DNA from: an uncultured Flavobacteriales bacterium
Lineage (GTDB): Bacteria > Bacteroidota > Bacteroidia > Flavobacteriales_G > Salibacteraceae
Direction: 5' to 3'
Assembly: GCA_937121175.1 (NCBI GenBank)
Contig: CAKZKD010000005.1
Location: forward strand, 186,001-250,000
Length of the DNA: 64,000 nucleotides
How positions within the stretch are numbered: the first letter of the stretch is position 1; every line of letters starts with the position of its first letter. The notes under the pieces were generated by a model that saw nothing but the letters and a program-made list of their open reading frames with translations, was not told the DNA's origin and searched no databases. A program made the position numbers and the translations under genes. Shown here one piece after another: positions 21,327 to 23,353 of this stretch.

Positions 21327-22568
21327 TTACAAGTATGATTTTAAGTGCTTAACTACCATTTCAGTAGCGCCCTGGTTTTGGTGTATGTAGGATTCACAAA
21401 TCTGCGACCGTTCTTTTAATTGCATGGGGTTCATTAACAGGGCAGATTGCTCAAAAAACTCTTTGTACGACTTTATTGATACAGCTCCTCCTTGCTCAAT
21501 AAGGTCTTCAGCTTCACCAAACTTTTTATAATTTGGCCCAAAAAGTATTGGTAAACCAAAAGTTGCAGGCTCTAAAATATTATGAATACCATCAGAGAAG
21601 CCTCCTCCAATAAAAGCCCAGCTTCCATATTTGTATATTTCTTTCAAAACACCAATGCAATCTAGAATTAATACTTGGCCTTTTGGCTCTTCTAAACCCA
21701 GTTCGACTTGAGAATACCTAACAGATGACACAGAAAGTTTTTCCATAAACTCGGTAATTTTTTGAGGGTTAATTTCATGGGGTGCCATTATTATTTTGCC
21801 TGAAAATGCACCTGAATTCAACCATTTCATTACATAATCCTCTTCCGTTTTCCAAGAACTGCCAACAACCACAGCCTTTCGATTATCCAAGAATGATTCA
21901 ACAATAGCATTATCCTTTCCAGAAGACAACACCTCCAAAACACGATCTATTCTAGTATCTCCTGTAACCATGGTATTGTCAATATCCAACCCTTTAAGCA
22001 GTTCATTTGTTTTTTCGTCCTGCACAAAAAACAACGTTGGTAATTTTAGGACTTGTCTGTAACGAGAGCCATACCATTGAAAGAACAAATGGCTTTCTGT
22101 AAGCTTTGCTGAAATTAAAAACAATGGAATTTGCCGACCTGAAAGTTCTTTAAAATAGAATAGCCAGAACTCATACTTTACAAAAACAACAATTTTAGGT
22201 TTGACAATTTCTATAAACTGCTTGGCGTTTGGTTTATTGTCCAGTGGCAGGTAATGCACTGAATTGGCTTTTGAATAATTGGAATGTTGTAAATAACCAC
22301 TCGGACTAAAAAAAGTAAGTAAATAGAAATGATCAGGTTGTTCAACTTTCAATCTTTCGAGCACAGTTCTACCCTGCTCAAACTCACCGGTTGATGAAGC
22401 ATGAAACCAAATAACAGGTTTATCATTACCTATTAAACTAGATTTTAATTTTTGCTGCCAGCCTTTTCGACCATTGACCCAATGGTTGGCTTTTTCTTTC
22501 CCAAAGATGGCCGCAATTCTAATAGCAAAGCCATACAGCGAGACGATTATAGTATATAGATACTCGAT
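21327..22568 (-). CDS. kdtA: 3-deoxy-D-manno-octulosonic acid (Kdo) transferase, non-canonical start
   Basis: GT30 enzyme that adds Kdo to lipid A precursor at the cytoplasmic side of the inner membrane. The first ATG/GTG/TTG in frame is a GTG at 22364, which would remove the whole N-terminal start of the family. The open frame continues upstream to a TAA at 22592-22590 and encodes exactly what KdtA needs: a membrane anchor (EYLYTIIVSLYGFAIRIAAI), then HWVNGRKGW, and WFHASSTGEFEQGR with the catalytic Glu. I place the start at ATC 22568, two bases after the stop of the upstream gene, giving 413 residues, the usual length. The C-terminal half has FIGGGFSDGIHNILEPATFG. The exact initiation codon is inference. 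Confidence 0.85.
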   Translation of the reverse strand: MEYLYTIIVSLYGFAIRIAAIFGKEKANHWVNGRKGWQQKLKSSLIGNDKPVIWFHASSTGEFEQGRTVLERLKVEQPDHFYLLTFFSPSGYLQHSNYSKANSVHYLPLDNKPNAKQFIEIVKPKIVVFVKYEFWLFYFKELSGRQIPLFLISAKLTESHLFFQWYGSRYRQVLKLPTLFFVQDEKTNELLKGLDIDNTMVTGDTRIDRVLEVLSSGKDNAIVESFLDNRKAVVVGSSWKTEEDYVMKWLNSGAFSGKIIMAPHEINPQKITEFMEKLSVSSVRYSQVELGLEEPKGQVLILDCIGVLKEIYKYGSWAFIGGGFSDGIHNILEPATFGLPILFGPNYKKFGEAEDLIEQGGAVSIKSYKEFFEQSALLMNPMQLKERSQICESYIHQNQGATEMVVKHLKSYL

Positions 22569-22570
22569 AA

Positions 22571-23353
22571 CTAATCGAAATAAAAATCCTTAGGAGCTCT
22601 CTTATAGATTGGAATCATCCAACCAAACTTAAATCCAATGGACGAGTCAAATCGTTTGTCTGAATCCTTCCTTTTCTCCGTAAAATTATAAGCTCTTCGG
22701 TTTTGGGTAAATGATTCATTCAATTCAATACCAGCGTAAATATTTATCAATTTCTTATTACTAAATAGCTGATAACCCACAAACTGAGAAAGCATTAAAC
22801 CGTTCGTCATCCTATCGTAACCTTTTTGGTAAGGCCAAGCCAATTGTGGCGTATTCACTTGTCGGTCTTCAACCCGCATTTTGTGCTGCATCATACCTAC
22901 TCCTATTCGAACCAATAAACCCGAATTATCATTAGGTTTCCCCATCGAAAACACCTTTCCAATACTCCCCCTAATCTGCCATCCTCTCAGTGAAACTAAT
23001 AAATCTGCAGCATTCCCATCTCTGTCAAGAATTGTACTTGTGCTAGTTAGTAAGTTATCAATAATAGTTCTCTCTCTAATTTGGTTTCCGAAAATGAACA
23101 CTCCTTCCGCGCCATATTCCAAGTTATTTTTTGCCTTATAAAAAAAGCCACCTCCAATTCCATGAAAATAACCAAATCGGCTTGCAAGGTCTCCACCGGG
23201 CAATTGAAAAGAATAGGTTATATCGATATGAGAAACACTGATTGCTGAATCTGAAATACTTTTTTGAGCCCATATTTTTGTGGGAAAAAGCAATACTAAA
23301 AACACCAGAACAGGTAAATGTAAGATGCTTTTATTATCCTTCGAAACACTCAT
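22571..23353 (-). CDS. Outer-membrane beta-barrel protein, unknown function
   Basis: A 260-residue protein with a signal peptide (LPVLVFLVLLFPTKIWAQ). The body is made of alternating strands typical of a small outer-membrane barrel (GGGFFYKAKNNLEYGAEGVF, GLLVRIGVGMM, LINIYAGIELNE), ending in an aromatic FYFD. It is the first gene of an operon with kdtA, crcB and the S24 regulator. A -33/-7 promoter of Bacteroidota type lies upstream. I do not know a specific function; a role in envelope or LPS maintenance is only suggested by kdtA next to it. Confidence 0.75.
   Translation of the reverse strand: MSVSKDNKSILHLPVLVFLVLLFPTKIWAQKSISDSAISVSHIDITYSFQLPGGDLASRFGYFHGIGGGFFYKAKNNLEYGAEGVFIFGNQIRERTIIDNLLTSTSTILDRDGNAADLLVSLRGWQIRGSIGKVFSMGKPNDNSGLLVRIGVGMMQHKMRVEDRQVNTPQLAWPYQKGYDRMTNGLMLSQFVGYQLFSNKKLINIYAGIELNESFTQNRRAYNFTEKRKDSDKRFDSSIGFKFGWMIPIYKRAPKDFYFD

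Follow-up and report, generated by a model that had tools for sequence, protein, structure and literature searches.

A conserved ATC at the start column of kdtA suggests a near-cognate AUC start in a genus of Flavobacteriales

The kdtA locus

The window analyzed here, a 64,000-nucleotide stretch of the genome of an uncultured Flavobacteriales bacterium, carries on its minus strand a reading frame that is open from 22589 to 21327, is bounded on its upstream side by an in-frame TAA (22592-22590), and ends in a TAA at 21329-21327. By predicted function the gene is kdtA, encoding the Kdo transferase KdtA/WaaA, a key enzyme of lipopolysaccharide synthesis: the product matches Pfam Glycos_transf_N (PF04413) at 1.6e-37, scoring 129 bits where the cut-off is 23.9, aligns with the Aquifex KdtA structure 2xci and with orthologs, and also matches the NCBIfam Kdo-transferase models, at scores under their equivalog cut-offs. 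The gene is single copy, with no second match in the window’s genome. With kdsA present in each of the four genus genomes sampled, these organisms would be expected to require a Kdo transferase.

The first ATG, GTG or TTG in the kdtA frame is a GTG at 22364-22362, which is codon 69 counting from an ATC at 22568-22566. The original prediction held that no canonical start could give full-length KdtA, that initiation at this GTG would lose the membrane anchor together with the catalytic Glu, and that the ATC, two bases past the upstream TAG stop (22573-22571), would give a protein of 413 residues; all of this was borne out, and its coordinates for the frame, the stops, the GTG and the ATC proved correct on re-reading. 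Translated from the ATC, the coding region would run from 22568 to 21327, comprising 413 codons and the TAA. Glu62 of the STGEFEQGR motif (GAG, 22385-22383) is aligned to the Glu of GEF in 2xci, the established catalytic residue of the family. Since Glu62 and the N-terminal anchor both lie upstream of codon 69, a start at the GTG would delete both, and the catalytic Glu would be present in the product only if translation begins above codon 62.

On the same strand, the gene upstream of kdtA (23353-22571) encodes a 260-residue protein with an N-terminus that, judged by eye, is signal-peptide-like, and with no match to any Pfam or NCBIfam family. Its product is predicted to be a conserved envelope-type protein. 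In about 50 loci from Bacteroidota the gene precedes kdtA, often with one-nucleotide overlaps of the form TAATG or TGATG, and many relatives space the two genes by -1 to +4 nt. On the downstream side, the ATG of crcB (21326-20961, minus strand; Pfam CRCB, TIGR00494) directly abuts the kdtA stop. Directly 3′ of crcB and co-oriented with it is a gene for a LexA/CI-like regulator with HTH_3 and Peptidase_S24 domains (20960-20226, minus strand).

Conservation of the ATC within and beyond the genus

The genus was represented by four genomes, that of the window (G000) and three others (G001, G002 and G003). Their KdtA proteins are 61-92% identical, with those of G001-G003 at 61-62% identity to the window’s. 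An alignment of kdtA from close relatives, the check proposed with the original prediction, places an ATC at the identical column in 4/4 genomes, none of which has a canonical start at the kdtA N-terminus. The sequence joining the upstream stop to this triplet reads TAG-TT-ATC in G000, TAA-GCTT-ATC in G001 and G003, and TAG-CCT-ATC in G002, corresponding to gaps of 2, 4, 4 and 3 nt, respectively.

The comparison beyond the genus took in 105 kdtA genes, drawn from the family, the class and the phylum. Every one of these has a canonical start within five codons of the ATC column, and in 104 of them it lies within two codons (ATG in 84, GTG in 10 and TTG in 10), the remaining gene (L090) having an ATG five codons upstream of the column. 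A missing canonical start with an ATC at the column was therefore found in 0/105 genes outside the genus. In a maximum-likelihood tree, the ATC-bearing kdtA genes form a single clade with support of 100/100, nested within a supported group whose other members start kdtA with ATG (G008 and G005) or GTG (G014).

The triplet itself is also unusually uniform. All four species have Ile at 18 shared columns of KdtA, and of these codon 1 alone is ATC throughout, the other codon-invariant Ile columns being ATT. Among orthologs sharing 50-75% identity, Ile codons written as ATC are retained as ATC in 34/179 cases (19%), so that an invariant codon 1 is mildly surprising when kdtA is taken alone. From these comparisons, the kdtA ATC appears to be a heritable near-cognate AUC start that is shared genus-wide.

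Initiation signals and a proposed mechanism

In none of the four genus species is the kdtA ATC preceded by a Shine-Dalgarno (SD) sequence at normal spacing, and position -3 is G or C in the genus; A is favored at this position in Flavobacterium and Bacteroidota (PMC6847099). Each genus genome has one initiator-type anticodon stem, belonging to a tRNA with a CAU anticodon, C1:A72 and the GGG/CCC stem. A GAU-anticodon variant of the initiator tRNA was considered and not found, the sole initiator-type stem of each genome being that of the CAU tRNA. An RNA hairpin presenting the start was likewise set aside, as single-sequence folds from the four species gave no common structure at the ATC. A stop-start spacing of an overlap or a few nucleotides, such as that seen at kdtA, is a requirement for translational coupling in E. 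coli and Haloferax (PMC10666635; PMC6728339).

Given the lack of an SD, the ordinary CAU initiator tRNA and the 2-4 nt gap, the likely event at this site would be a mismatched reading of AUC by re-initiating ribosomes. We consider it likely that kdtA in this genus is translated from the near-cognate AUC at 22568, probably fed by re-initiation after the upstream gene; the central proposal of the original prediction, a rare ATC start with coupling to the gene before it, thus gains support from comparative evidence. Ribosomes ending the upstream gene would stop 2-4 nt short of the AUC and a fraction of them would re-initiate there, making re-initiation probably the source of ribosomes for kdtA. 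The ordinary fMet-tRNA (CAU) would then read AUC with A and U paired and a mismatch at the third-position C, a reading expected to be weak and of low efficiency, and the product would be a full-length, membrane-anchored KdtA with an N-terminal Met. On this view, a canonical start in the genus ancestor would have changed to AUC a single time, and the AUC would have been kept thereafter. Several points count against an AUC start for kdtA, namely the G or C at -3, the presence of AUH Ile codons at positions 7 and 8 in all four species, and the weakness in E. coli both of AUH starts, of which ATT, by a figure cited in PMC10666635, reaches about 0.3% of ATG, and of SD-less re-initiation (PMC2268962).

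Alternative explanations

Sequencing or assembly error, with an ATG in the true genome or an indel joining an upstream ATG to the frame, is the commonest cause when one draft genome misses one start codon, and a lost ATG or assembly error was the alternative put forward in the original prediction. It is rejected here because the ATC stands at one column in four species, three of which differ from the window’s by 38-39% in protein sequence. Initiation at a downstream canonical codon, yielding a truncated KdtA, would accord with GTG 22364 being the earliest codon that gene finders accept, but such a protein would lack Glu62 and the N-terminal anchor. Moreover, the first canonical codon falls at 69, 31, 16 and 69 across the four species, and as this position differs among them, none can be a conserved start. 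The codons above it are also under purifying selection: between G001 and G003, codons 1-30, all of which lie above the first canonical codon of G003 (31), have a dN of 0.022 and a dS of 0.268, indicating that they are translated. We regard a downstream start as extremely unlikely. The absence of an ATG from kdtA is real biology, and both a pseudogene reading and a sequencing error are effectively excluded.

The proximity of the upstream stop, only 2-4 nt from the ATC, would also suit a programmed frameshift or read-through that fuses kdtA to the upstream gene. However, a gap of 2, 3 or 4 nt alters the frame relation between species, and hence the shift required, which rules out a conserved frameshift fusion; in addition, in-frame stops lie close above the kdtA frame, and the signal-peptide-like N-terminus of the upstream protein is unlike the cytoplasmic KdtA. 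Such a fusion is thus highly improbable. Initiation at codon 7 or 8 instead of codon 1 is suggested by the AUH Ile codons found there in 4/4 genus species, but column 1 is where relatives begin, Tyr5 is shared by the genus and most relatives, and the codon used varies at 7 and 8 while staying fixed at 1, leaving this choice of codon unlikely. The AUC might instead be used without coupling, through de novo initiation on the kdtA mRNA, for which dprA of the same genus offers a model, its AUH start lying, by our reading, about 30 nt from the upstream stop with an A at -3. In contrast, neither an A at -3 nor an SD is present at kdtA, where the 2-4 nt gap is conserved and ancestral overlap with the upstream gene is common, so that we view uncoupled initiation as conceivable but rather doubtful.

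For an AUC start fed by re-initiation, the behavior of E. coli suggests possible consequences for regulation. In that organism, both initiation at non-canonical codons and re-initiation without an SD are repressed by IF3 (PMC2268962); by analogy, kdtA could be doubly sensitive to IF3. It is plausible that the weak start may limit Kdo transferase, as the original prediction suggested, or that IF3 may control kdtA.

Other genes with apparent AUH starts in the lineage

Stop-to-stop frames were compared between 1.16 Mb of the window’s genome and 1.2 Mb of G001, giving 526 ortholog pairs. In three of these, kdtA, dprA and rnhA (the latter two names being ones we take from sequence recognition), conserved protein extends well above any canonical start in both species. 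Three such genes is a lower bound, because a chance canonical codon within the first dozen codons masks a case. Two short pairs with long extensions were set aside, C4_858 as a probable spurious frame and C4_946 as part of a tRNA region. A more sensitive scan of start columns gave, among the matches listed, mainly conserved 5′ leaders followed by an ATG. Separately, a gene for an 800-residue secreted-type protein (G000:C2:213438-215879, minus strand) reads CTG-AAA-CAA-GCT against TTG-AAA-AAA-GCT in its G001 ortholog, and CTG is a possible start for it.

The rnhA gene (G000:C2:81431-81910, minus strand) has ATC-GCN at the column of the MA- start in every one of the four genus genomes and also in G005, G008 and G014, which represent three sister genera (7/7; loci L319-L322, L324, L328 and L329). 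In the other rnhA genes read, the start column or its vicinity holds an ATG, GTG or TTG. The ATC lies shortly past an upstream stop, 9 nt after that of a Dxs-like gene in G000. Pairwise third-position identity among the seven ATC genes is 34-68%, and 6 of the 75 amino-acid-invariant codons are also codon-invariant, with the start ATC among the 6. Retention of ATC despite diverged third positions is good evidence of constraint on the triplet itself, as expected of a start codon.

In the genus, dprA (G000:C2:263514-264620, minus strand; loci L289-L292) has no canonical start, and an ATC (G000 and G001) or an ATT (G002 and G003) stands where relatives are canonical. The genus infC has an ATA start behind AAGGAGG (G000:C5:4136 region; loci L126 and L129-L131), and a canonical infC start is missing in nearly all relatives read. 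With infC starting at ATA, initiation at an AUH codon must already take place in this organism.

At the position that appears equivalent to R112 of E. coli IF3, the IF3 sequences compared (loci L123, L126 and L129-L131 among them) have N in the genus and in G008 and K in G005 and the other sampled relatives. This change was rejected as the cause of the rnhA ATC, since G005 has K and the substitution and the ATC are not co-distributed; it is a lead only. More broadly, we tentatively propose that a subclade of the family may have adopted AUC as a recurrent SD-less start for ordinary genes (kdtA, rnhA, dprA and others) through a change in the initiation machinery, for example in IF3. If so, standard annotation would truncate or drop AUC-start genes throughout the clade.

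Significance and comparison with known near-cognate starts

To our knowledge, very few bacterial genes have a start other than ATG, GTG or TTG. Near-cognate starts were known before in infC, pcnB and sigR, several of the best-documented non-canonical starts rely on a strong SD, and Bacteroidota is a phylum in which SD pairing is hardly used. What appears to be new at kdtA and rnhA is an AUC without an SD, just past an upstream stop, that is conserved genus-wide in the former and across several genera in the latter; AUC starts for kdtA, rnhA or dprA did not turn up in a literature search of incomplete coverage. The apparent fixation of AUC in a single-copy envelope gene throughout a genus, and in rnhA of several genera, would provide a natural test case for the acceptance of weak start codons by ribosomes when no SD is present, and for whether termination-reinitiation can substitute for one. 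It also predicts that automatic annotation strips the catalytic N-terminus from KdtA, and the N-termini from DprA and RNase HI, in these species.

E. coli infC starts with ATT, and its Streptomyces counterpart with ATC (PMC5472188). Like kdtA, infC is a housekeeping gene with a conserved near-cognate AUH start, but it encodes IF3 itself, hence its autoregulation, and in this genus it has AAGGAGG before its ATA, whereas kdtA, with no normally spaced SD, would start 2-4 nt past an upstream stop. Streptomyces sigR resembles kdtA in that its non-canonical start is conserved in the genus, leaves no trace in other genera and is misplaced by gene finders. It differs in using GTC rather than ATC, in having an extensive RBS (AGGAGGTG), and in being experimentally shown and IF3-repressed (PMC5472188), whereas the kdtA AUC start is predicted from sequence. 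In S. aureus, cvfC1 (AUU) and ccpN (AUA) likewise have conserved near-cognate starts, which reduce protein yield; these are directed by extended SD motifs (PMC13009471), unlike the apparent SD-less starts of kdtA and rnhA. Strong or extended SDs thus accompany sigR (PMC5472188) as well as cvfC1 and ccpN (PMC13009471) and S. aureus infC, and this element, typical of IF3-regulated weak starts of the infC/sigR type, is missing before the kdtA ATC in 4/4 species. Termination-reinitiation pairs, which in Bacteroidota seldom have an SD, share with kdtA a start only a few nucleotides from the upstream stop (PMC6728339; PMC10666635). Those pairs restart at canonical codons, however, whereas the restart proposed for kdtA would take place at an AUC.
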